NCBI GenBank assembly: GCA_004565275.1
Contig: SDOX01000009.1
Coordinates: forward strand, 694,185 to 758,184
Direction of reading: 5' to 3'
DNA: 64,000 bases
Source: Nannochloropsis salina CCMP1776
Taxonomy: Eukaryota > Sar > Eustigmatophyceae > Eustigmatales > Monodopsidaceae
Shown: positions 11-39,102 of the stretch, piece by piece
Layout: the number at the start of each line of letters is the position of its first letter
Position numbering within the stretch: position 1 is the first letter of the stretch
Program-made: the position numbers and the translations under genes
The notes under the pieces: generated by a model
Told to the model about the DNA's origin: nothing
What the model saw: only the letters and a program-made list of their open reading frames with translations
Database searches by the model: none

Positions 11-2750
11 ATGGAAGCGGTCCGGGACGCATGGGAAGAGGAAAGCGAGAGAGGCGAGAGGAGGGAGGGAAAAAGCAAGCGCGCTTTCCCCAGGGGAGAC
101 GTGCGCGGGTTCTTTGTCAAGCCAGACGTGGGGAGGAAGCATGCGGGGGGGGGGGGAGGAGGAGGAGGGAGGGAGGGGGAAAAGAGGGCATGGTCCACCG
201 CTGCAACCACGCAGTCTGGAAGGGGCGTCTTCAAGGGCCAGACCGAGTTCTGGAAAAAAGCACGAAGAGGTTGGCAAGGAGGGTGGGACCGCAACCAGGG
301 CGGTCGTGGTGATCGATGTGGACGGAGAAGACGGCAGGAAAGACCCAGAAGAGGAAGGGGAGAAATCGACGGGAAGGAGCCGCTGCGGCGTGGTGTATGT
401 GGAGACTGCCTTGGGGTCCGAAGGGAGGGTTGGGGACGGTGGCCACAGTCCTCGCCCGGAGCCGAGGAGGGCGCACATGGTAGACTTGGAGCCGCTCGCC
501 TGCCCCTCTGCCGCTTCCTCCTCCCCTTTGGCTTTCCCCGCTTCCGCCTCCTCGTCCTCTCCGGACCCTGCCTCCACTTCCCTCCCCTGTGGCTCCCTAC
601 AACCCTCCATCTCCACCCACACTGACCCGCCCGTAGCGTCGTCCACCAGGCTCGCTTCTCGTCCCCCCCGGGGCCCTCCCTCCCGTCAAGACCTGGTCTG
701 GAGTTGCCAAGCCTGCACGTTTTTGAACCGATTCCCCCCGCACCCCTTTCCTGCCTCCCTCCCTCGATCTCCCGCTTCTCTTTATCTCCTGAGGGCCTCT
801 GGAGGCGTCGCTTGTGGATCTGAGAAGGGCCATTCTTCGCTGCTTTGTCGCATGTGTGCCACACCCGCCCCGACGGCCCTGGCCGAGACATTGGGCCGAG
901 AAGACGCGATGTCAAAGGAAAAGAAGGACGAAGTCGAGTCCGTTGGTGGAATCGCGCGACATGATGGGGAGGGAAGGCAGCAAGAGGCAGAGGAGGAGGA
1001 GGAGGATGGGGTATTGGTGGTTGGACAAGAGGAGGGTCGGATCCGGGGCATGTCGCGAGGGCAGGGCACTCGACAGCCGACGCAGCGCCCCCCCCTGCAG
1101 GAAGAGGGGGGATGGAATAGAGGCAGGAGGGCCGGTGTGTCGGGGAGCCGGGAGGAGAAGAAAGGGGAAGGGCGAAAGAGGGAGGCGCCCACCGGCTTCG
1201 GCGAAAGGGCACCTAGAGCCAGCGTCCGGTTCCCCAGGTCGAGGGGGGGATTCAGGGAAGATGGGAGCGGAGAGAGCGCGTGGGAACGATTGAAAGTCAG
1301 GGTAGGGATTACAGACGATAGACGGGGAGGAGAAGAAGGGGAGGCGGAGGGAGGAAGAAGGGGCATAGGCATGTCTTTCGCGGTGTCTGCAAACACAGAG
1401 CGGGTCCGGGTGGCCTATGGACCAGCTGGAGGGGGAGAGGGAAGGCGGGGGGCTGGAACCGTGAATTTCAGCATGGAAGAATTTTATGCGTTGGTGGATG
1501 GACAGAGACTTGAACTCGTGAACACGCCATTTGAGGGGCTCGGGCCCCTCCTTGAGCTCGACGGGAGCGAGGCCGCGGCGGCCACCTCGCCTTTCTCCCT
1601 GTGCCTGCAGGTGCTGCTGGGGTGCGAAGCCTTCGTGCAGCAGTGGGCGGACTTGAGGGGGTGGGAAAGGAAGCTGCTCGCAGAGGCGGAGCAATTGCAG
1701 CTGCCTTTGGCGCAATCACTTCGGAAAGAGATTGGGAAGATATGGTGCAAAGGGGAAGGAGCCGTGGAGGGCGGGACGGAGGGTCAAGGAGGCGAGAGGG
1801 GGGAGGAGAGGAAAAAGCCATGTTTCGAGCGGTACGTCAAGTATCCAGCGCTGGGAAATGGCCCCTCAAGGACCAAGGTTATTCCACCTTATGTTCCGCA
1901 TGCCTTCGCACCACGAGCCAACGTCCCCACCCATGCAAGCTGGGCCCCTGCACCCACTGAAAAATGCCCAGTCCCCACCAACGCCGAGACCAGCACCTGT
2001 AACAGTGCCAGCAGTGGGATGGAGACGGATAGTGTGAGGACAGCGGGGAACAATGGCATGGAGGGAATCCACATATCCCCGCATGGCGCGATTTCACCCC
2101 CAGGCTCGACCCCTGCGTCTTCGATCCCTTTGCTGTGCAGCTTCTGCAAACGCTCCATCTCGGATCCCTCCCTCCTTCGTGACCACACCCTCCGCCTTTC
2201 CATGGCACATCACAGCCAGAGCTTTACCTCCATCACCACCGCTGGGGGCCGCGACCGAGTGGACCGGATCGGTAGCGGCCCTCGGCAGCCCTACTGCTCC
2301 TATGCGTGCGGACAAGAAATTCTTCTGCGAGCCGGCTCCTCTTCGCTCATACGACGGCAACTTTTTGCTTTGGAACGAGGGGTCTGTCAACTCTGTGGCT
2401 GCGACTGCCACGCGTTGTTCCAGCAAGTAAAAAGCTTGCCCCCCCCTGAGCGTGTGCAGCTTTTCATGCGTCTCGAACACGCTTTCACATGTCTGGACAA
2501 GGCGGCCATTACGGATCCTCGCGAGGGACACTTTTGGCAGGTCGATCACGTCTTACCCGTCGTGGAAGGGGGAGGAGCCTGCGGGTTGGAGAATCTACGT
2601 ACCTTGTGCACCCCCTGCCATGCCCGAGAAACCACGCGTTTACGGATGCGATTGAGAGAGGGGAGGAACCAGGAGGCGGCCAAAGGCACCCGAGACATCC
2701 GGTGTTTTGCGCGGAACGCGGAAGGAAAGAAAGCATGTGGGAGGCTTTGA
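11..2750 (+). CDS. ZRANB3: ZRANB3-like annealing helicase/nuclease, C-terminal half (5' partial)
   Basis: This looks like the C-terminal half of a ZRANB3-type fork-remodelling protein; the SNF2 helicase half would lie left of the window. In the main frame (from 114) a RanBP2/NZF zinc finger has CxxC pairs at residues 198/201 and 245/248, with an unusually long loop between them. A region from about 420 to 545 matches the ZRANB3 substrate-recognition domain. A C-terminal HNH nuclease has CQLC at 758-761, the motif GHFWQVDH ending in Asp811-His812, and a later CTPCH. The HNH order and the block before it (PYCSYACGQE) follow human ZRANB3 closely. A PIP-box-like segment (GDVRGFFV, nt 95-118) is in another frame, upstream of a run of 12 G at 145-156, so a frameshift or missed intron is likely. 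Family assignment is firm; start and joins are not. Confidence 0.82.
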
Positions 2751-3265
2751 GCGTTGTTGCTGAAAGTGTGCGCAAAAAGGTAGCTGGGAACATTAGAAGC
2801 GAAGAACGAGAAAGTAGTAGGCTGGGCGTGTATGATAACTTGTGGCAACCAGGCCCTGTAAAAGTACCCTGTGACTCAACCCCCCCGCTGTCAAACGGGC
2901 TCTCCTTATCGTTCGACAGTCGTTATGTTGGGCTTACATACGCAGTGCTTTCGCTTACTTCGCTATTCTATGCAACGTCAGACAACGGTCACTCTCTTTG
3001 GCTCTTATTCCTGGGGGAATACTTCTCCTTGAGCCTTGACTTACTGGTCTCTCACCCCCCTAATCACCATCTGAAAATATCTGTCACTGGGTGGTATGCA
3101 GCGCCTCTCCTTTCCGCACCGCTCGAAAACATCACGCCTGTCACCGCGAGTCACGCAGTGTCTCTCTTTTCCCTCTTCCATCTCTCCAGCCCGCCCCAAA
3201 ACTACACAGCATTCACATTACTCACACAGTCACACACGCTCCCTTCTCCTTCCCTCGACTTTCCT
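2751..3265. other. Intergenic, convergent 3' ends
   Basis: The ZRANB3-like gene and the DUF1995 gene end towards each other here. The stretch must hold both 3' untranslated regions. I see no further gene. Confidence 0.6.
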
Positions 3266-13965: not shown

Positions 13966-16351
13966 TCACCAACCCCCACCCCGCTCGGAATCATCATCCT
14001 GTTCTTCCTCCTCGTTCTCGCCACCATCTTCTTCTTCGTCTTCTTCCTCCTCATCCATTCCTGCGGCGTGCGGACACTCTGCTATGTCGTGGCCTGGCTC
14101 GTTGCATCCCTCGCAGACGTCTTCCTCTTCCTCTTCTTCCTCCTCTACACCCTTGTCCTCTTCCTCCTCCTCTCCTTCCCCCCCTGGTTTTCTTGTTGTT
14201 TCTCCTACGGAAGTCCTGGAAGACGAGCTCGTCCCATTGCCCGGTCGAATGTCTTTTTGGCACAACGGGTTCTCATTGCTCATTGTCACCACCTCCCCTC
14301 TCAGCTTCCGTTCTCCACATCCGTCGTTTTCATTTTTTTTCTTGGCCAATCCTCCTTCTCTCTCCCGCCGCGCCAGCTCCTTCCTCAGGCACTCCTCCTG
14401 GATTTTCTCTTCTTTTTCCTCTGATGTCATTGCAGGCGCATGGGAATAACAGACAGCTCGTTCCCCACCCAAACGGTTGTAGAATTCCCTCATTTCATTC
14501 TCCCTCCGCATCCACGCCGCCTTTCTCCCCTCCTTCTCCTCCAACGCCTCCACCACAACTGCGACCACCACATCCAGGTTGGAGGATCGATATGGCCGGT
14601 ATCCCGCCGGGATAGACTCTCGACACACCGGACAAGCACGCGGATGGGCCCGCTTTGTGAAAGCCTCGTCTCCTTTCTCCACATCCGGAGGTCCTCCCTT
14701 CGCGCCTACTCCTTGCTGCAGGCCTCGCTTACACTGCCCACGAACTTCTAAATCTCGTAAGGTTTCTTCAGGATCTTTGTCGGGCCCGTCCTTGAGGTAC
14801 GTATGCACGCAGGAGAAGCAGAATGCGTGGGAACAGGGCAGGACCCCCGCGTCCATGACTATCTCCGAACACAGTGCACAGCCCAGCTCGGCTTCCAAGA
14901 CTTGCAAAATCTCCTCCTGTCCTCCCTTGTCGCCCTTCGCTTGCTGGCTCCGTCCGCTTGTCTTCACGGCCCTGCACTTGTCGAGTTGCCTCTGGAGGGC
15001 TGTTTTCGACCGGCGTGTATTCTTTAGTTCCCTTTTCAACGCCTCTGCTTGGGCAATTTTGGCCTGAAGCATTTCCAACGCCTCCTCTGCCGCCCTTTGC
15101 TTTACAGTAGACTGGTCCTCCGCGACATGCTTCCCCTCCTGCAGCTGAGCGAGCGCAGCATCGACCCGGGCTTCAGCGACCATTAAGGCGGCGTCCTTCT
15201 CTCGGAGCGCCTGCCGAGCCTGCTCCTTCGCCGCCCGCTCTGCTCCTACTATGGTCTCTAATTCTTGCACCCGCCCCTCCGCCTCTCTACCGACTTGGAC
15301 AGCATTAAGTAGAGCTGTGATTGCCTCCTGATAGTCGCCGGAGGGGGGGAATCCCACTGCCGTAAACACCTTTTTTTGACACTGCTGGGCCGACGCAAGC
15401 GCCTTTTGCAAGGTGGCGATGCGGGCTTCCATTGATTCCTTCGATCGGCTAATTTCCAGATTTTGATCGAAGTGCAATTGTAAGCTGGACTCCCTGTCTT
15501 CTTTGCCGGCAACATGCACCCCCTGCGCGGTCCGTCGACGCTTTTTTCCGTTTGGGGCACGCATGTTCCCATCGCCCTCGAGCATTTCTCCTTCGTGCTT
15601 GCCACGTCCCTGGTCCCTAGCGACAATTTTCGCCCTGCCTCCTACACACCCTTCGAATGCGTTCCTCTGGCCCGCCCTCTCTTTTCCCTTCCCGACATCT
15701 CGCTCCACATACCGGTACATAATTGCCTTATTGCATACAGGCCCAAGCTCAGCTCCCTCTTGCAAACCAGCCGCCCCGCCAAATTGAATCATGTCACCGG
15801 AGTGCAAGCGGGCCTTTCGAATTTTAACACGATTTATAAAAACTCCGTTTAATGATCCGACGTCCTGGATGTACGTGCTTTTCTCCGGGCTGACCAAAAT
15901 TTCAGCGTGCCGTCGAGAAATGGTGTTCTGCGTCATCCCGTGCGAGAGAACAACGTCAGCTTTGACCGAACGGCCGACAGAAGTATTTGTTCGAGAAATA
16001 TGAATCAGGGTCGGAATTTCGTCCTGCGGTTGCCGAGCAGAAGGTTTTGGTTCGACAAGGCAGAGAGCTGGAAAATGTGTAGACAAATGGAGGAGGTTGA
16101 GGACCAAATCACCACCAACGGGTTTCTAAAATGTGAGTTTCATGCAAGCGGTCCGTCACAAAGCTCGAAAAGCCAAACATTGACGTCAGAACATGAGAAA
16201 ATGCAATTATTGTCCAGTGCATGAGGGAAAAAGATTACTCACTTCGCTCGATGCCATCGTCGACTACAGCCCCTCGGGCAAATTCCTCTGCTTTGTGCCC
16301 TGTCTCGTTACCTCCATGTCCCTGTAGCTTTATGCTAACCGCCGGAGCCAT
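13966..16351 (-). CDS. FHA / coiled-coil / RING / CCHC-knuckle E3 ubiquitin ligase
   Basis: A predicted 736-residue ligase of the RNF8/CHFR type. Exons on the minus strand are 16351-16243 and 16067-13966. Joining A with CT at a GTGAGT donor and a TTTTCCAG acceptor gives an in-frame protein starting MAPAVSIKLQ and continuing LCLVEPKPS. An FHA domain spans about residues 60-130 (SVGRS, ISRRHAEI, DVGSLNGVFIN) and should bind phosphothreonine. A long coiled coil follows (about 240-410). The RING begins near residue 433 with CALC, then CSHAFCFSC, and after an insertion CPVCRESI. A single CCHC knuckle (CEGCNEPGHDIAEC) sits near the acidic C-terminus. This order suggests recruitment to phosphorylated partners in DNA damage or mitotic checkpoint signalling; that role is inference. 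Confidence 0.8.
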
Positions 16352-17353: not shown

Positions 17354-20300
17354 CTACACCCTCCCGGCGACCAGATCAAAGACCGCGTCAACCAGATCCG
17401 TGCTTCTCTTGACCACCGCCTTCTCCATGCTGCTGGCGTAAGGCACGGGCGCGTCGTCCATGCACAGACGTTTGACAGGAGCGTCGAGTTCGTCGTAGCA
17501 TTGCTCGGAAACCAGGGCACTGATGGTCGCACCCACCCCCCCCGACGAAGTGGATTCGTCCAGGATGGCCAATTTATGAGTGCGGGAGAGCGAGGCGCGG
17601 ATGGTGTCCATGTCCAGGGGTTTTAGGGATCGAAGTTCAATCAGATCAATTTCCACGGAGGGGTCTCGCTCGGCGATCGCCGCCTGAGCAATCTGGCTCT
17701 CCTTGACACCATGCAGGTAGGTCAAGACAGTGACCGCTTTTCCCGCCAACACGGCCGCGTCCGAGGCGGCGCTCAACGCCACCGCCTTGTTCATGGGCAG
17801 GCATTGATCCACAGGGGCGTTCCCCTTAATTTCTTTCATCAGCTTGACCGGCAAAAACAAAATCCCGGGGCCGTTGTCTCGGATCATGGACTTGGTCAGA
17901 CCGTACGCGGCGTAAGGAGACGCGGCCGTGCAAATCTTCAGGCCAGGGATACCCATCACATAAGCGTGGAAAGGCTGCGAGTGCTCCGCGCCCAAGGCCT
18001 GGTTAGGGGCCGTACCACCGGCGCCAATAATGGTCATGGGCATCAGGAATTGGCCCCCCGTCGTCGCATACGTGTTGCCTGCCGAAGAGATCTCAGCCAG
18101 GCCGTAGATGCCTGTCGGGGTACGGGATGAGGAGCCAAAATGGGAAAGGGCAGGGGCCGGGTGAGTAGCTGGTGGGGGCAGGCTGCACAAAGCCCAATGC
18201 CGTGACGGGACTTAAAGCCATGACACGTAGAGCGCCACGATCCTCTCATCCGACTTAGCGGACATATCACCCAGACCCAGGACAAAAAATGCGACAGGTG
18301 GGGGAACGCACCAAAATTGGTGTTCATGAGTTCAACGATCGGCCGGTATCCGTTCATAGCCTCTCCAAGCGCTTTCCCAATGAAATGCCCTTCGTCGATG
18401 ATCTCGTCGGCCGCACGGAGTTTGCCAAAGGTCTGCTGGGTAAGCTTAGGGATGTTGTAGGAGGAGCCGGCCTGAGGGGAAGCAGAGGGATTTTGAAGGA
18501 ATTACGGGTGAGAGTGGATCAGTGGAAATTTCAGTCGACGTTGTCGTCGAGCACCAGGCAGCAGGTCATGGACAAACAAGACCCCCAACGCCTCCCCCTC
18601 CTCTCCATGCCCCGTCCCAAAATTTTACCTGTAGATCCTCCGCGTGGATTGTGGTGGTGGGATCGCGGACCATCTCCTCGAGGATAGCCAGGTTCACTGC
18701 ATCGCCGATCGTCAGCATGTTCTTCTCGCTGTTGCTCCTCAACAAGGCAATGTACTGTTTCAGGAAAGCGAGGGGAAAGAAAGAGGTAGAGGTTGGCAAC
18801 ACTCAACCCTCGCTGAGACATGGCTTCCCAGCATTTCGACGTTACATATCCCCAATATCGAAGGAGAGCTTCGTCAAGATATGACGAGGAATAACGATAG
18901 ACAATCTATGTTTAAAAGACGGTCTGGAAACAAGAAGACAGGGAGGGGGGAAGGGAGGGAGGGAGGGAGGGTCTGCACGCACCTCTTTGCAGGCGGCAAG
19001 GGCGGCGCCATCCACGGTCTTCTTGGTGATCGCCTCCGCTCCGGCAGGGGGTGCGCGAAGGTTGTAATCCGTGTTAGGAGCATCGGGGTATTCAAGTTCC
19101 TGGATAGAAAGACGAAATTGAGTGATGGGAAAACAGGGGGAAATGAGACACACTACATAGTTCCATGATCAAAGAATGCATCGTGAAAGCAGTCAGCTTC
19201 TATGGCCGCTTTTAAAGGCCGTCGATCCAAAGGCGCCTGCCACAAAGACGCCGTCCCACTGAATGACTTACCTTGGCCAGCCCCGCCGGGGGCGGGGAAG
19301 AGGCGTCGGCAAATTCAACGGCCTTCTTGACCGTTGCCTTGGCCTCGGCACGGCAGGCTTCCAAATCGGCTTCCGTGATGCCGTTGGCCGGGGCCGTCAC
19401 TTCCTCGAAAATCACAATGGGATCGGCTTCCGCGCGCGCCCACCGCTTCTCCTCCTTCCGACCCCGTTCGTGCTCAGGATCGGCGGGGGAATGGCCCGTG
19501 AAACGATACGTGTGCACCTGGAAAATGGAGGGGGAAGGCAAGCGGAAAGGGTCAGAGGGAGAGGTACGACGCGGTTGCGTTCACAGTCTGGCCAGACTGG
19601 GGGCGGAAAAGAAGGATAAGCAAAAGCAGGAAATTGCAGTACTCGTAGTCTACACAGAAATGTGCCCCGTTAAAAACGGGGATGGAAAGTGCAATGCGAG
19701 CACGCTCGACCGCGTGACTTCTGGAAACACATCACGACGGGGTGGGGGTTGGGAGTACCTGCAAAATGGCCGGTCCTTTCTCTCGCACGTAGTCTACCAC
19801 AGCCCTGCCTGTCTTGAGGGTGTCCGCCATGTTCTGACCGTCGACTTTCACCCCGGGAATGCCGTAGTGCATCCCGGCCTTGAACACATCGCTGTTGGCA
19901 GCCACGTCGGGGGTAAAAGTGTTGATGGCTCGCCCGTTGTCGATCACTAGGAAGAGGATGGGAAGGCCCTCCTTGGCGGCCGCATTCAGGCACTCGGCCA
20001 TGCGCCCGTTCTGGGCCCCACCCTCCCCGATGAAGACGATGGTGATGCGATCGTCGTCCTTCTTACCCTCCGCGTCCAACTGTCGGTCCAAGAGGATGGA
20101 TCGGGCGGCTCCTACCGCGTAGGGTAGTTGCTCCGAGACCAACGCCCAGCCACCTTGGAAATTTTTGGAAACGTCATAGATGTGCATGGATCCGCCTGCC
20201 CCTTTGCAGGTCCCGTCTACTTTGGCAAAAAGCTCGGCCATCACATTTTCGGCCGGAACGCCCGAGGCCAATGCGTGTGTGTGTTCACGGTAGTAGGAGT

Positions 20301-20802
20301 GCTTGATGTCACCCGCTTTAATCGCATCGGAGACCAAGGCAGGGATGGATTCCTGCCCGTTGTCCAAGTGCATGAAGCCGCGAATCTTCCCCTGCATATA
20401 GGCCTGGTTGCACGCGTTTTCAAACTGGCGCGAGACCTCCATCATCGTGTACGCCTTCAACAGGTCCGCTTTCCCCACCGTGTCATACTTGCCCAGGGAG
20501 TTCTCCGTCAGCCCAAAGGCCGTGTTCAGCTGCGTCTTCACTCGCTCCCAGCCCAAGTCCTCGGGACGAGGGCGCATCTGCCCTCGTGCCATTGCCTCAG
20601 GGTCCTCGTTGTAAGTGGGACGATCGGTGGCGGTGACACGCGCGGCTGTTGCTGCAGGAGCCGCTTGTAAGGGGGTAGCACGCGTCGTTACTTGGATAGG
20701 GCGCGGGGTCGTGGACAGGAAAGAGGACGGGTTCAGGAAGGCAGTGGACGTGGTAGCCAAGCCAGCCCCAGCGAAAAGGGCCAGACGCATCGAGATACGC
20801 AT
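17354..20802 (-). CDS. Plastid pyruvate dehydrogenase E1, alpha and beta subunits fused
   Basis: One gene encodes both E1 halves of the thiamine-diphosphate pyruvate dehydrogenase, which would feed acetyl-CoA to plastid fatty-acid synthesis. Minus-strand exons: 20802-19759, 19517-19272, 19099-18983, 18754-18629, 18471-18312, 18111-17354. All junctions are GT-AG and phases match (0,0,0,0,1), giving 816 residues with no internal stop. The start gives a signal peptide and the transit motif TSTAFLNP. E1 alpha (to about residue 410) shows YREHTHALASG, GGSMH, a diphosphate-binding GEG...N motif and the catalytic-loop block FTGHSPADP. A 70-residue linker follows. E1 beta starts near residue 482 and shows IHAEDLQ with the cofactor-contacting Glu, LGAEHSQPFH, RSLKPLD and VPYASSMEK. 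In most organisms the subunits are separate; bacterial fused E1 proteins of the wider family are known. Confidence 0.88.
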
Positions 20803-31520: not shown

Positions 31521-31984
31521 TCGGCAGCCGTCTTCTACGAGAAACGGCTGTACATTGCCAAGATAGAAAGGTTGTGCGCGTTATGATGGATGATGTGAGG
31601 AAATGCTGCGAAATGTGGAGCGAGTGTCTAGGAAAGCACAGAGACACTTGAAGGGGCACCGAAAAGCGACTCATTCGGAGGGTGACAAATAAGACGATAA
31701 AACGCAGGCACCCGACAATTAGACAAGTCAGACGCCCAATCTCTGTCTAGTGAACGACGCTCAGCGCGTCCTATGCATGAATTGTATGTTCCTTGCCGAT
31801 GGAGTGCTTCGTCTTTTGTCCCTTTTTTCCTTCACCAATTTCATCCTCCCACCGTTCGGAGTCGCTAAGACGGGCAACGATGGGCCACATTGACGGCATA
31901 AATGGGCGCGGCGGACCCCAAAGACGCTTTGAGGGCCCTTTTGTACTCATTCGTGGACTCACTGTCGTCGTGCACACCACAGCC
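31521..31984. promoter_or_regulatory. Shared upstream region of RING-H2 and EXO84 genes
   Basis: The two genes diverge from here. The EXO84 frame is open up to an ATG at 31793, so the right part may be coding. No specific element recognised. Confidence 0.4.
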
Positions 31985-34900
31985 ATGTCATCGGCCACAA
32001 AGTGGACTTCCTCCGGTGCCTATGGAGCCGAGAACTGCAGCATTACTGGCAGTGATAAGGCTCGGAGTACTCGGCAACCCGCTTACAATCGTCTTCCTCG
32101 AAAGCATAAATCAAGGAGCCCTTCCTCTGCGACCGGCATTACTGACTCTCTGGCAGAGTTCGCCGAGCAAACTTTCGTGCCAGAAGAATACGCAGAAGCA
32201 TTTTTTGCGGCTCACCCAGAAGCAGAAGCGGAAGAACGATGTGCGGAATTGACGGACCTGAGATGTCAAACCCAAGAGTTGTTGCGGGCCGAAGTGGCTT
32301 CGCATTACCAGCTCTTCATGCGGAGTACAGAAGACATCCAACACGTGGAAGCAGACATCGCGAGGCTTCGCAGGCATGTGGGCAGGATGCAAAAATCCCT
32401 GAAAGCGCTTGATGGTGCCATGACCACCACTTTATCCGGCGCCGCGGCAGATAACGTGAGTATAGCCTTCGCCGCAAGCTCAAAGGTGAGAGAGAGCAGC
32501 ATCGCAATCAAAGACATGGAGGATGGTGGTCAGGATGGAATAGGTGCTCGTGCACGTGACGTGGCATCTCTGCCGGAATGCTTGCGGTCGTGGGGGGCGA
32601 CAGGGGCGACAGGAAAGAGAGGAATGACGGAAGAGGGACGTGGCGGTGGATCGGACGGCTTCAAAGGCGGGTTACACCACCACAGCAACGACCCGGCCGC
32701 AAACTTATCGTCGGGTTTGGAGGGAAAGGGGCCGAGTGGCCAGCCTGCCCCCAATGCCTTGGTAAGAGGAGACGACTTGCCTGTTTGGGTCGCTGCCGCC
32801 TTGGAAGACCTGGACAAATGCATCGTGGAAAATCAACGCTCTGTGGCCGTGAACCACATTGTCAAACTCCGCGCCCTGCTTGCCTCCCTTTCGCCCTCCC
32901 GCGCATCGTCCCCTCACAGCCAAGACCTGCAAGGTCGCGTCACCAGCAAGGGGAAAGAAATCGCTGGGCGGATCATCCGGGAACTCGATGCTCTGGCCCC
33001 CGGGGCCAACCTCTCCATCCTCTTCGATTTCGCGGACATGGCGCAGCAGCTTCGCTTTCTGGTGGCCCTGGACGAGGCGGAGACGGCGGTCGACTTCTTC
33101 GTGCGAAACAAGGGCGGTGTCTTGGCGCGGGCGCTCCACTCCCCCGAAACCAGCGGGGAGCCGCTGGTCTATGTGGCGGTGCTAGCAGAGCGGTTTTTCG
33201 GACTGATGGCAGACGCCTGTGAGTCTTTCGATGCGCTTTTTGCCGTGAGCGTTTCCGAGGGCAGGTCCGAAGCTATAACCGCAGGCGGTACCCCCATAAC
33301 GCCCTCTCCAAATTTCGAGGCATTCACAAGCACGGACGTTGAAAATCAACGCGGTGGCCCCATGTCGACGCCGGGGCCATCCGTTCGGCCTCCCAAGTGC
33401 TTCTTGCGCCTCGTCCTGTGGGTAGAGGAGGAAGTGAGGCAGTTCGCGGTCTTAGTGGGTCGCCAATTGCGAAGCCTGCGCCAGGATTGGTTGCTGTACC
33501 GGCTCCGTGTGGCGGGGAAAGCCCAGGGAAAAGACGGGAAGCTGGCAAAGGGAATGATCGCAGGCAGCGGCGGGGATGGAACAGGTAAGGTTGTGGAAGG
33601 GCTTTCCCCGTGCGAGGCCCGCCAAGGTCCTCCTCGTCCCACCCTTTCACCCCCGTGTCTTCCTCTCTCCTTGTCCCACCCTTTCACCCCCGTGTCTTCC
33701 TCTCTCCTTTCTCGGCACCTCTCTTCCCTGTTCCTGACTGTGGCAGCGGTGCAAAACGGGGCAGGCTTCTTCCCAGAGAGTAGCTTTTGCGGGGTGGGAC
33801 AGGTTGGACGTCCAAAAGGAGCGACAGGATGGCATGCCGCTCTGTCGGAGACGCGCTGTCTCCTCTTGACGATGGTCAACGCCCCTCCGCCTGGTGCGCC
33901 CGTCACCCATCCACAGCGCACCCTGCCCTCCCTTTTCTTCTCCTCCTTCCTTTTCTTCTCCTCCCTTACCCTCCCCACGGGCGCTGTCCGCTGCCACCCG
34001 GCCTTCATCACGGCCGGCGCCTGCCTGGAGGTGTGTTTCTCGCTTGCCAGCAAGCTTGACGCCCTGGGGATACCTGTCGCCCCTGTCTTCGCCCACGGAC
34101 TCGCTTCAGACCTCTCATTCCTCCTCGGCGGGGTCAGGTCTGCGGCATGGGTCCGCATGGAGGACGCGATGGCTACAGAGAGGGAATCAGGGGCTAGGGT
34201 CGTGGTAGTAGGGGAGGAGGCGTTGGTATTGGTCACTCCCGGAAATGTGGTATCGAAGCTGCACAAGATGGTCTCTGAGGACGAAAACGAGGGGGAGGCA
34301 GAGGTCATAGGAACGCGAGACTCCGAGGCCGGAAGCGCTGGGAATGGGATGGATACGGCCTCTGAGGAGACGGCAGCCAGGGGCTCTTGTTCCTCCACTC
34401 CTCCCATGGGGAATGCGCCAGCACACCCCGTCTTCCCTTCTACGCTCCTCCTGCTTGAAGCCTTGAACGCCCTGATGGTGAGTTGCGTCGCGATGCTCGA
34501 TCCCACGGGGGAAAGGCCCCGGTCTTGGGAAGTGCTGGGCCCGGCCCTCGGCGCGGCCCTGGTGAAGGAGGCCTGTGGCTTGCTGCGAGACTACGCTGAG
34601 GAGGTGGCGAAAATGGTCGCAAGCATGGAAAGGAAGGGGGAGGACCAGGGAAGGAAGCCGATGGGCCATGCGTCGGTTTGCACCGAGGGTAGCCCGGAGT
34701 GGAGGGAGCGGGGCGGGCCAAGCACGGAGGAAAGAGAGGCCACTGCGAGGAGACCAAGGGAGGCGGCGGCTTCCCTGAACCCTCGGCCCTCGTTGCGGGA
34801 GTCTGCAGCACGCGTTCTTGGGGCCTTGACAGATATCACCCTGCAAAACCTGCGGCAGTGGACTGAAGACCCTTGGGTGCTGGTGGATGCGACGGCGATC

Positions 34901-35101
34901 GAGATAGAAGAGGTCCGGTCTGTGTTTGACCTCTACACTCGGACCGCCGATGCGATGGGTGAAAAGGCTGCTGCGGTAGAGGCTTCGGCCGCTGCCATTT
35001 CCTCTCCTCCAAAGTCCGGCTCAGCTCCGCCTGTGAAACAGCCACCCTCGGGAACGTCACCACCTTCTGGAGTTTTTTCGCGCCTGACATTGGAAAAGTA
35101 G
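31985..35101 (+). CDS. EXO84: Exocyst complex subunit EXO84
   Basis: EXO84 is a subunit of the exocyst, which tethers secretory vesicles to the plasma membrane. The N-terminal coiled coil (residues about 60-140: SHYQLFMRSTEDIQHVEADI) fits the VPS51/EXO84/COG8 N-terminal domain. The block LPVWVAAALEDLDKCI near residue 260 matches the EXO84 signature, where plant and animal proteins have WL-x4-PEDLDVCI. The helical C-terminal region follows (FADMAQQLRFLVALDEAETA, LVYVAVLAERFFGLM). The frame is open from 31793; the ATG at 31985 is the first that avoids a lineage-odd leader. A GTAAGG donor at 33585 and a GGCAG acceptor ending at 33746 bound a pyrimidine-rich 162-base stretch, a multiple of three without stops, which is probably an intron. 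A second such stretch at about 33890-33990 is less clear. Confidence 0.75.
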   Translation: MSSATKWTSSGAYGAENCSITGSDKARSTRQPAYNRLPRKHKSRSPSSATGITDSLAEFAEQTFVPEEYAEAFFAAHPEAEAEERCAELTDLRCQTQELLRAEVASHYQLFMRSTEDIQHVEADIARLRRHVGRMQKSLKALDGAMTTTLSGAAADNVSIAFAASSKVRESSIAIKDMEDGGQDGIGARARDVASLPECLRSWGATGATGKRGMTEEGRGGGSDGFKGGLHHHSNDPAANLSSGLEGKGPSGQPAPNALVRGDDLPVWVAAALEDLDKCIVENQRSVAVNHIVKLRALLASLSPSRASSPHSQDLQGRVTSKGKEIAGRIIRELDALAPGANLSILFDFADMAQQLRFLVALDEAETAVDFFVRNKGGVLARALHSPETSGEPLVYVAVLAERFFGLMADACESFDALFAVSVSEGRSEAITAGGTPITPSPNFEAFTSTDVENQRGGPMSTPGPSVRPPKCFLRLVLWVEEEVRQFAVLVGRQLRSLRQDWLLYRLRVAGKAQGKDGKLAKGMIAGSGGDGTGKVVEGLSPCEARQGPPRPTLSPPCLPLSLSHPFTPVSSSLLSRHLSSLFLTVAAVQNGAGFFPESSFCGVGQVGRPKGATGWHAALSETRCLLLTMVNAPPPGAPVTHPQRTLPSLFFSSFLFFSSLTLPTGAVRCHPAFITAGACLEVCFSLASKLDALGIPVAPVFAHGLASDLSFLLGGVRSAAWVRMEDAMATERESGARVVVVGEEALVLVTPGNVVSKLHKMVSEDENEGEAEVIGTRDSEAGSAGNGMDTASEETAARGSCSSTPPMGNAPAHPVFPSTLLLLEALNALMVSCVAMLDPTGERPRSWEVLGPALGAALVKEACGLLRDYAEEVAKMVASMERKGEDQGRKPMGHASVCTEGSPEWRERGGPSTEEREATARRPREAAASLNPRPSLRESAARVLGALTDITLQNLRQWTEDPWVLVDATAIEIEEVRSVFDLYTRTADAMGEKAAAVEASAAAISSPPKSGSAPPVKQPPSGTSPPSGVFSRLTLEK
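33585..33746 (+). other. Probable stop-free intron of EXO84 with tandem repeat
   Basis: Bounds are GTAAGG and GGCAG. The length is 162, so retention would keep the frame. Inside is a near-perfect 37-bp tandem duplication at 33636-33709. The encoded Pro/Ser/Leu sequence has no counterpart in EXO84 proteins. Confidence 0.6.
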
Positions 35102-35932: not shown

Positions 35933-36477
35933 GTACTTCGGATTGAAAGAGCCGGGGAAGGAACACAATGAAGTGAATGTTGAATAATGTAACAATAGTG
36001 TAACGCAGTTTGATCGTTCTTTATCCTCCATCGTCTTTCATTTCGATTTTGCTTTTCTTGCCTTTCTCGTCGCTTACGAGCCCGGCCCATAGGACTCTAC
36101 ATACACCACTTCCTCGACGAGAAAAATGTCCCTCCAGTCGTTCGCAAATGCAAAGCAGCCTTATCATCCATTCCTACACATCAAAATCCACTCTAAGGCG
36201 CATGAAAGAGCTCCTAACTTCCTTTTTTTGACATTCACATAGATCCGGTGGGGGGGTCTTTTTGGGACCTCGAAGTGGTGGGTGCCCCGCATGTGAACCA
36301 CCTTATTAGATGTAGGCGGCCCTAGGTTTCGTTCTCGATGACTTCTCCGTTGAGGGAGCAGGCACTTATATCCAGACATCAATTACTATCCTACAACGTC
36401 TTTCTCACAGGTTGGTATGCGTCCCTGTGGCTAAATTGTCTTGGACTCTACATAAGCAGCTCGGTATTAAAGCCTGG
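35933..36477. other. Intergenic upstream of ABCG gene
   Basis: It should contain the ABC transporter promoter. The frame is open back to 36412 without an ATG, and CTCACAG at 36404-36410 could be an acceptor for an unseen first exon. Confidence 0.4.
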
Positions 36478-39102
36478 ATGCCCGCCTCCACCTTCTTTTT
36501 TACTTTTTCGCTTTTCCCAATTATTTCAACACCATTTGGGCGACTCCGATTGTGCCAACTGTCTTGCCGTTTCATTCCAATTCTCCTTCTCGTGGTGCTG
36601 TATCCCCGCGCTCTGCTGGCTGCATTGCACACAGCAGATAACATGGTCAAGCAGGCCTCCCCCCCCGCCACCTCCACCTGTTGCAGTAAAGCTCTCCGAC
36701 TAGAATGGGAAGACCTGTGCTGTCGAACCAAGTCAGATAAAAGCAGTTCTGGGAGGGAAATTTTGAGCCATGTATCCGGACAAGCGAAACCGGGAAGATT
36801 GCTGGCTATTATGGGGCCATCGGGGAGCGGGAAAACGACCTTGCTTAACACCCTCTCAGGGCAGCTCCCTTACAGCTCCTCGGTGCGACTTACAGGCCAA
36901 GTCTTTATCACGGAGGAAGACACAGGCTCAAAAGACGCGGCGGGCGGGAGTTTTGTGGGCGTTGATGTTGCCATCCCTGGTAGGGAGAGGGAGAGCGGTA
37001 ACTCGGGTTTCGTATTTGTCAAACAGGAAGACTTGTTCTACTCCCAATTGACCGTGCGGGAGACCCTCCTTTTCACGGCCCGCCTCCGCCTTTCGAAGCG
37101 AATGAAAGACGGGGAGAAACGGGCCTATGTGGAGGAGATGATGGCGCGCATGGGTCTTGCCGACGTGGCGGAGACGATGGTGGGGGACGAGAAACAGCGC
37201 GGCATCTCCGGGGGGGAGCGAAAGCGCTTGTCTTTAGCCTGCGAACTCATGGGGAACCCGAGCAAGATCATCTTTGCCGACGAGCCCACCAGCGGGCTGG
37301 ATTCCTTCCAATCCCAAAGCGTTGTCTCGCGCCTGAAACGCCTGTGCCACGATCCTGCCCGGCATACGGTCGTGGTCTCCATCCACCAACCCCGCAACAG
37401 CGTGTACGCCATGTTCGACGACATCATCCTCCTCAGCGACGGCCACGTCATCTACCACGGCCCTGCGGGGAAAGCCACCGAACACTTTGCACGTCTCGGC
37501 TATGTGTGCCCGCCAGAATTCAATCCAAGTGAATGGATGCTGGACTTGGTCTCCGTCGACCATTCCTCCCCGTCACGCCGACAAGAAAGTCAACAGCGGG
37601 TCAAGGAACTGATACGAGCGTACCAGGAGCAAAAGTACACAGGAGAGACGTCCGCCGTCTCTCCCCCCCATCTGTCCAGCGAGAAACAAAAGCTTTTGAG
37701 ATCCCACCAGCTTGCCAACTCCCTGTCCGCCCGCCGGGCCATCCGTGAGCACCATCCTTCCTGGTTCGCGCAATTTTGGCTCTTGATCGCCCGGCAATGG
37801 AAGCAGACGTCTCGAGACCTGTTCACCAATGGCCTCCGGGCGCTGACCTCGGTCCTGCTCGCGGGCATGTTTGGGTCCATCTTCCATCGGCTCGGCCGGG
37901 GCGAGGACGGGATCTCGGAGCGTTCCGCCGTGCTCATGCACACCTGCATCAATACGGCGATGATCGCGATGGTTAAAACCTTGAACCTGTTCACGCGGGA
38001 GAGGGTGGTGGTCGGGCGGGAGCAGACCAAGAAACTTTACAGCACGAGCAGCTATGTGTTGTCCAAGGTGATCGGAGAGCTACCCGTCGACGCCTTCTTC
38101 CCCGTCGTCTTTGGCTGCATCCTCTATCCCATGGTCGGCCTCCAAGCCCATGGACAACGTTTCGCGCGCTTTTTGGGGATTCTTGTCCTCCAGACATTGA
38201 CTTCCTCCGCCCTCGGACTCACCATCGGGAGCCTCTGCCCCTCCACAGAAGCTGCCCTGACATTGGGACCGTCCATCATGGTCGTCTTCATCCTCCTTTC
38301 CGGTCAGGTCGGCACGAGCAACAGCAAGATCCCTCCTTTCTTAAGATGGGTTCAACACATCTCACTGATCCGGTGGGCCTTCGAAGCCCTCTGTCTCAAT
38401 GAGTTCCAAGGGCTGACTTTTACAATACCCAGCCGCTCCCCGCTCCGTATCCTTCGCCGGCTCCTGCCCCCCTTCCTCCCCCCCGCCTTTCGTCGCGCCC
38501 TTCCTTCGCCCTTGGTGCCTCTTGCGGGCGCTGAGGTCCTGAAACGCCTGGATATGGACCCGGCGCGCACCAGCATGGGCCGGGCAGTGCGGGCACAAAG
38601 CCTCATTCTCCTCGGCAATTACCTGCTCACCTACGCGGGTCTGAGGTTCCATGCGCCGCGCTTTCAACCCATCATGGCAACCTCCTCTCCGCCTGCATCT
38701 GGCCCTTTGCCACCCTCCCATTCTACCGCGACTCCCCTCCCCTCGCTCACGCCATCCTCACCGGGTCGAGACCATCCAGTCGAATCGCGTGCGTACCGCA
38801 CCCTGCGTCCACCTATGGCCCTGTCTCCCCCCCCTCCTTCTTCCTCGCCCTTGGCTTTGTCGACGACCGTGGGAGGGGCTCGGTCGGAAGAAAGGCGTAC
38901 CCCGAGCCTGTCCTCCTCCATACCCTCCCCCTCCACCCCTTCCCCTTGGTGGAAAAGACGCCGTTCCAGAGCGATTTCCGCCCCCTCCCCCCCGCTTTCA
39001 GCCTCCCTACCGTTCTCTTCAGGAGAAGGAGGACGAAAACATTCCACGCTGAAGGATAGGACGGCATCGTGGCCGAAACTTTTCCATCCACCACCGCGGT
39101 AG
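36478..39102 (+). CDS. ABCG-family half transporter
   Basis: An ATP-binding cassette half transporter of the White/ABCG family, with nucleotide-binding domain first and membrane domain second; it should act as a dimer exporting lipids or other hydrophobic compounds. Counting from the ATG at 36478, Walker A GPSGSGKT begins at residue 113, the signature ISGGERKR at 243, and Walker B IIFADEP at about 264 with the ABCG-type TSGLDS next to it. The six-helix membrane domain runs from about 430 to 740 (FWLLIARQWKQTSRD at its start, GNYLLTYAGLRF at its end). The N-terminus has a hydrophobic segment (FIPILLLVVLYP), unusual for ABCG and possibly a targeting signal. A Pro/Ser-rich tail of about 140 residues follows the last helix. 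Substrate and membrane are not decided by sequence. Confidence 0.85.
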   Translation: MPASTFFFTFSLFPIISTPFGRLRLCQLSCRFIPILLLVVLYPRALLAALHTADNMVKQASPPATSTCCSKALRLEWEDLCCRTKSDKSSSGREILSHVSGQAKPGRLLAIMGPSGSGKTTLLNTLSGQLPYSSSVRLTGQVFITEEDTGSKDAAGGSFVGVDVAIPGRERESGNSGFVFVKQEDLFYSQLTVRETLLFTARLRLSKRMKDGEKRAYVEEMMARMGLADVAETMVGDEKQRGISGGERKRLSLACELMGNPSKIIFADEPTSGLDSFQSQSVVSRLKRLCHDPARHTVVVSIHQPRNSVYAMFDDIILLSDGHVIYHGPAGKATEHFARLGYVCPPEFNPSEWMLDLVSVDHSSPSRRQESQQRVKELIRAYQEQKYTGETSAVSPPHLSSEKQKLLRSHQLANSLSARRAIREHHPSWFAQFWLLIARQWKQTSRDLFTNGLRALTSVLLAGMFGSIFHRLGRGEDGISERSAVLMHTCINTAMIAMVKTLNLFTRERVVVGREQTKKLYSTSSYVLSKVIGELPVDAFFPVVFGCILYPMVGLQAHGQRFARFLGILVLQTLTSSALGLTIGSLCPSTEAALTLGPSIMVVFILLSGQVGTSNSKIPPFLRWVQHISLIRWAFEALCLNEFQGLTFTIPSRSPLRILRRLLPPFLPPAFRRALPSPLVPLAGAEVLKRLDMDPARTSMGRAVRAQSLILLGNYLLTYAGLRFHAPRFQPIMATSSPPASGPLPPSHSTATPLPSLTPSSPGRDHPVESRAYRTLRPPMALSPPPPSSSPLALSTTVGGARSEERRTPSLSSSIPSPSTPSPWWKRRRSRAISAPSPPLSASLPFSSGEGGRKHSTLKDRTASWPKLFHPPPR

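Follow-up and report, generated by a model that had tools for sequence, protein, structure and literature searches.

A probable plastid pyruvate dehydrogenase E1 with its alpha and beta halves fused in one nuclear gene of a heterokont-type alga

In a photosynthetic alga of the heterokont type, one nuclear gene very probably encodes a plastid-targeted, thiamine diphosphate (ThDP)-dependent pyruvate dehydrogenase (PDH) E1, with alpha and beta in a single chain. In plants, E1 alpha and beta are encoded by separate nuclear genes, and in red algae by separate plastid genes; plastid PDH is among the main enzymes proposed to supply acetyl-CoA to plastid fatty-acid synthesis. With E1 as one chain, the two subunits would be held at a 1:1 ratio, a single import event would suffice and engineers would have one gene to alter in place of two. 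If it were common to heterokont algae, the arrangement would be a mark of the lineage and a natural single-chain form of an enzyme that usually has two chains. Working with a three-lipoyl E2, the single chain may also alter the complex; a change in the assembly of its core was suggested in the first-pass annotation.

Gene model and the join between the halves

The gene lies on the minus strand, running from position 20802 down to position 17354 of the window (the whole 64,000-nucleotide stretch of DNA that was analysed), and consists of six exons and five introns, all of the latter beginning with GT and ending with AG (Table 1). The first-pass annotation had proposed six in-phase exons and one 816-residue frame, and rebuilding of the minus-strand gene model bears this out: the spliced frame of 2451 nucleotides encodes 816 amino acids and a stop, in phase throughout, in the order presequence, E1 alpha, linker, E1 beta. 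Introns 1 to 5 measure 241, 172, 228, 157 and 200 bases, the first four being in phase 0 and the fifth in phase 1. Retention of introns 1 to 4 would bring in-frame stops into the message (2, 2, 2 and 1, respectively); intron 5 contains no in-frame stop, and retaining its 200 bases would shift the frame. The weakest step of the gene model is the coding status of exon 3, with its 39 linker residues: among the six exons it is the only one in which the GC fraction at third codon positions (0.64) is lower than at first positions (0.69). The fusion does not require exon 3: its junctions with exons 2 and 4 are both in phase 0, and skipping it would still yield fused halves.

Table 1. Features of the E1 gene, in window coordinates
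Feature	Position	Strand	Basis
Exon 1, 348 codons: presequence (about residues 1-60), then the larger part of E1 alpha, including YREH and the thiamine-diphosphate stretch (GEG...N)	19759..20802	-	gene model, Pfam, structure-relative alignment
Signal-peptide-like start MRISMRLALFAGAGLATTSTA, then F22	20737..20802	-	by eye and hydropathy
Exon 2, 82 codons: C-terminal portion of E1 alpha, including TYRFTGHS	19272..19517	-	gene model, alignment
Exon 3, 39 codons: linker joining the halves	18983..19099	-	gene model; GC pattern by codon position less distinct than in the other five exons
Exon 4, 42 codons: last linker residues, then the beginning of E1 beta (Transket_pyr)	18629..18754	-	gene model, Pfam
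Exon 5: E1 beta, including its catalytic glutamate (DEIIDE; human counterpart in the alignment, DTPISE)	18312..18471	-	gene model, alignment
Exon 6: remainder of E1 beta, including the histidine of AEHSQ and Transketolase_C, then the stop	17354..18111	-	gene model, Pfam, alignment

It is conceivable, though improbable, that two adjacent genes, E1 alpha (exons 1 and 2) and E1 beta (exons 4 to 6), are transcribed or processed apart and that the joined frame is an accident of gene modelling. The 517 bases that separate exon 2 from exon 4, and so the alpha from the beta half, could accommodate such a division, as could the in-frame stops of introns 2 and 3 if these were retained, and the weak coding pattern of exon 3 points the same way. 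What tells against two genes is the quality of the splice sites (the GT-AG introns have 15-18 pyrimidines in the 20 bases preceding the AG), the phase-0 joins of exons 2, 3 and 4, which hold with or without exon 3, and the lack of an in-frame, presequence-bearing start directly before exon 4. No in-frame methionine is found upstream of exon 4, back to the last stop; a separate beta protein would need a presequence exon that is not seen. The first in-frame methionine is residue 482, where the E1 beta domain opens, and translation beginning there would produce a protein without a presequence. The earlier statement that no start or stop separates the halves is accordingly right about the stretch from the last upstream stop to exon 4, which holds no methionine, but needs amending for the beta domain, which opens with the in-frame Met 482.

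Domains, partner genes and substrate

Three Pfam domains are found in the product of the fused frame, each over its curated cut-off: E1_dh (PF00676) at residues 120-424 (E=2.9e-51, 174.7 bits against a cut-off of 22), Transket_pyr (PF02779) at residues 483-655 (E=2.9e-15, 56.8 bits against 27) and Transketolase_C (PF02780) at residues 687-797 (E=3.7e-22, 79 bits against 25.9). These matches are far beyond chance, and the protein belongs to the alpha-beta type of 2-oxo acid dehydrogenase E1. Among solved structures the nearest relatives are the human PDH chains, E1 alpha (1.4e-44) and E1 beta (3.1e-40); together with the Pfam domains, they confirm what had been claimed from inspection, namely a complete E1 alpha, a linker and a complete E1 beta.

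Human mitochondrial PDH E1 (PDB 1ni4) and the algal fusion have their domains and key catalytic positions in common, the human enzyme being built of two separate chains and the algal one of a single chain. In the alpha half the human-aligned YRxH (YREH here), the metal-binding Asn196 and GHS are all kept, as are the active-site Glu59 and His128 in the beta half (human residue numbers). In the same alignment, the stretch around the second phosphorylation site of human PDH E1, which we take to be SYR, is not kept. The Mg/ThDP motif of the fusion reads GEG where GDG is expected. GEG is also present in the branched-chain-type E1 alpha of the same genome and in two bacterial fusions (L024 and L025, described below), so that loss of activity need not follow from the substitution.

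The first 21 residues, judged by eye and hydropathy, resemble a signal peptide and are followed by phenylalanine. A signal peptide with phenylalanine at the cleavage motif (ASAFAP-like) is the pattern of heterokont plastid proteins. Two other genes start in the same style as the MRISMRLALFAGAGLATTSTA-F of the E1 fusion: an E2 gene on contig C35 (MRQTTLTRKAVGAGLLALVLLAQASMA-F) and an E3-like gene on contig C1 (MRLSSTCLLLAITGATA-F). The putative plastid E2 (C35:438000-441600, locus L116) occupies an uninterrupted frame of 783 residues (845-3193 of the locus) with a 2-oxoacid_dh domain, three Biotin_lipoyl domains and two E3_binding stretches, and scores 484 bits with the PDH E2 model TIGR01349, above its cut-off of 445. 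The best model for the E3-like gene is TIGR01350 (dihydrolipoyl dehydrogenase), at 393 bits just below the cut-off of 408.8. With E2 and E3-like genes that start in the same way, a nuclear-encoded plastid PDH is the best reading, and the E1 fusion, the E2 and the E3-like protein would form a full plastid complex. The spliced gene model, the presequence-like start (seen by eye) and these two matching starts lend support to the nuclear location and plastid targeting that the first-pass annotation had proposed.

The assignment to pyruvate is of a different kind. The best NCBIfam match of the fusion is TIGR03182, the equivalog model of PDH E1 alpha, at 279.3 bits against a cut-off of 393.85, and the E1 beta model NF006667 gives 202.7 bits against a cut-off of 321. 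The mitochondrial-type E1 alpha on contig C55 of the same genome, which serves as a control, passes TIGR03182 with 407.4 bits. The fusion, falling below the cut-off of TIGR03182, is not filed under that model, and we infer pyruvate as its substrate. The alpha half matches the mitochondrial-type E1 alpha (151 bits, 32% identity) better than it does the E1 alpha near 155 kb of contig C93 (87 bits, 28%), which we judge by eye to be of the branched-chain type; the best NCBIfam model of the latter (C93:155382-156296, locus L002), which has GEG for GDG, is TIGR03181, again below its cut-off.

Family and protein searches of the alga's own genome (weak for intron-rich genes, and with only the best candidates scored) returned no other plastid-type E1 among the matches listed, the other E1 alpha genes among these being those of C55 and C93. 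Frames at C1, C14 and C78 are, to judge from the frames, transketolase- or DXS-like. A probable mitochondrial E1 beta at C55, identified by eye, was missed by one of these searches, another catching a 32-position piece of it. Runs of N occur beside this gene (C55:41584-44679, locus L014) and, in the plastid contig C103, which carries psaA and psaB, at the start of psaA (locus L109). The PsaB of C103 and PDB chain 8zo9_b differ at 4 of 737 residues. Since C103 is partly N and the searches are weak for intron-rich genes, a second plastid copy of E1 may exist.

This last consideration can be turned into an argument that the fusion product serves the plastid as an E1 for some other 2-oxo acid, or is a degenerate copy, and that separate E1 genes elsewhere deal with pyruvate. 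The strong divergence of both halves (see below), the missed NCBIfam cut-offs and the GEG in place of GDG would all fit, but we regard it as very improbable: the frame is open over six exons with its key residues kept, the alpha half is nearer to PDH than to the branched-chain-type E1, a PDH-type E2 with a plastid-style start is present in the genome, and no further plastid-type E1 alpha is among the matches listed.

If the gene does encode a plastid PDH E1, its operation can be sketched. The fused protein would be imported into the plastid, where two chains would pair into a counterpart of the alpha2-beta2 E1, with ThDP bound where an alpha half meets a beta half. This E1 would decarboxylate pyruvate and acetylate the lipoyl domains of the plastid E2, and the acetyl-CoA so made would feed plastid fatty-acid synthesis.

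Bacterial fusions and the origin of the algal gene

Bacterial alpha-beta fusions are real but uncommon among the loci examined. Single stop-to-stop frames with E1 alpha followed by E1 beta were found in Leisingera (L024, 666 residues; the fused PdhA WP_024092523.1), Ciceribacter (L025, 670 residues) and an alphaproteobacterial metagenome-assembled genome, or MAG (L094, 680 residues). Only L094 comes from the contig scan, in which it is 1 of 80 loci (the best 80 of 583 relatives); L024 and L025 are 2 of 4 plasmid loci that had been chosen for high coverage. Of the 84 loci, 48 have an alpha match in the available DNA, the fusion status of the others being not fully judgeable. The length of its frame had suggested L034 as a further fusion, and this was rejected, its alpha lying in another frame. 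None of the best 80 of 583 relatives has a cyanobacterium named in its record title; the two patterns used for the contig scan may well exclude cyanobacteria. In viral contigs, the beta half alone gave 9 pattern matches and the alignment query 20, with no relatives among either.

In Leisingera the fused PdhA is flanked by an E2 gene and acsA, according to the annotation, and Ciceribacter has like neighbouring frames. In contrast with the algal gene, the bacterial fusions are unspliced, lack a presequence and have a shorter gap, of 14-24 residues, between the matched halves. L024 and L025 are 37-38% identical to the algal fusion in alpha and 32-34% in beta; for L094 the figure is 32% in both halves.

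Trees were made for alpha (49 rows, including 46 of the 48 bacterial frames, two with fewer than 250 aligned residues having been dropped) and for beta (85 rows, including all 84 bacterial frames), both without cyanobacterial or algal plastid rows. Both halves of the algal protein are very divergent, with end branches of 3.09 in the alpha tree (median 0.33) and 5.13 in the beta tree (median 0.32), and the trees decide little on their placement. The mitochondrial-type E1 alpha of C55 groups with alphaproteobacterial rows (99/97) and the alpha half of the fusion stands outside that group, although its long branch makes this placement weak. The three bacterial fusions fall into two separate parts of the alpha tree as drawn, a single origin being recovered in 34% of the bootstrap trees.

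That the alga took the fusion whole from a bacterium with a fused E1 is very improbable: the alpha-beta order is the same in all three bacterial frames, and the smallest well-supported set that contains the algal beta half (29 rows, 98/98) also contains all three fused rows, but both halves score higher against separate than against fused bacterial genes (beta, 192 bits as opposed to 142-170; alpha, 199 bits as opposed to 145-180) and the alpha tree puts the algal protein apart from the fused rows, again weakly, on a long branch. A more particular history for the single-chain plastid E1, to which we attach rather little confidence, is that the fusion arose once, in the ancestor of the heterokonts with red plastids, when the E1 alpha and beta genes, neighbours in the plastid, were transferred to the nucleus together; it would then have evolved fast along with the three-lipoyl E2, giving an E1-E2 core unlike those of plants and mitochondria.

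The diatom protein, other fusions and neighbouring genes

A counterpart may exist in the diatom Phaeodactylum tricornutum, also a heterokont alga, whose protein B7FZE1 (PDH1) we take to be Phatrdraft_55035. In proteomic data, with 24 unique peptides, B7FZE1 carries the name 'pyruvate dehydrogenase E1, alpha and beta subunits'; the fusion is read here from the name and not from the sequence. The labels vary: in the relevant passages of PMC9153171 B7FZE1, and in those of PMC3662598 Phatrdraft_55035, is called the alpha subunit only, and B7FZE1 figures among the up-regulated proteins of the complex in an extract of PMC8670125. PDH1, PDHA1 and PDHB1 are listed as the three pyruvate dehydrogenase genes of P. 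tricornutum in a portion of PMC6477932, as would be expected of one fused gene and a separate pair. The reading of the algal locus as a fused E1 is supported as regards the fusion, its nuclear location and its probable plastid targeting, but the novelty that had been claimed for it is weakened by the diatom name with both subunits and by the bacterial fusions. Since the diatom name points to the same fusion, the algal gene is a useful example of an arrangement for which a diatom already supplies a name.

Other metabolic partners are likewise joined in single nuclear genes of algae of this kind. TIM-GAPC3, UGP/PGM and G6PDH/6PGDH are diatom examples (passages of PMC2173943), and several amino-acid pathway fusions, anthranilate synthase alpha/beta among them, are recorded for Nannochloropsis oceanica (passages of PMC3499364); a fused pyruvate dehydrogenase is not named in these passages. 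Neither PMC3499364 nor PMC4859558 has a match for 'pyruvate dehydrogenase' in its main text, and no discussion of an E1 fusion as such was found among the matches listed from the open-licence literature, as partly available, subscription papers lying outside its scope.

Three other genes of the window may be mentioned. After the E1 gene, on the same strand (13966-16125, minus), lies a frame for a protein with FHA and RING domains and an acidic, Cys/His-rich C-terminal tail, presumably CHFR-like. On the plus strand are a frame with the C-terminal domain of the exocyst protein Exo84 (31781-35101) and an ABC transporter in which ABC_tran precedes ABC2_membrane (36316-39102).
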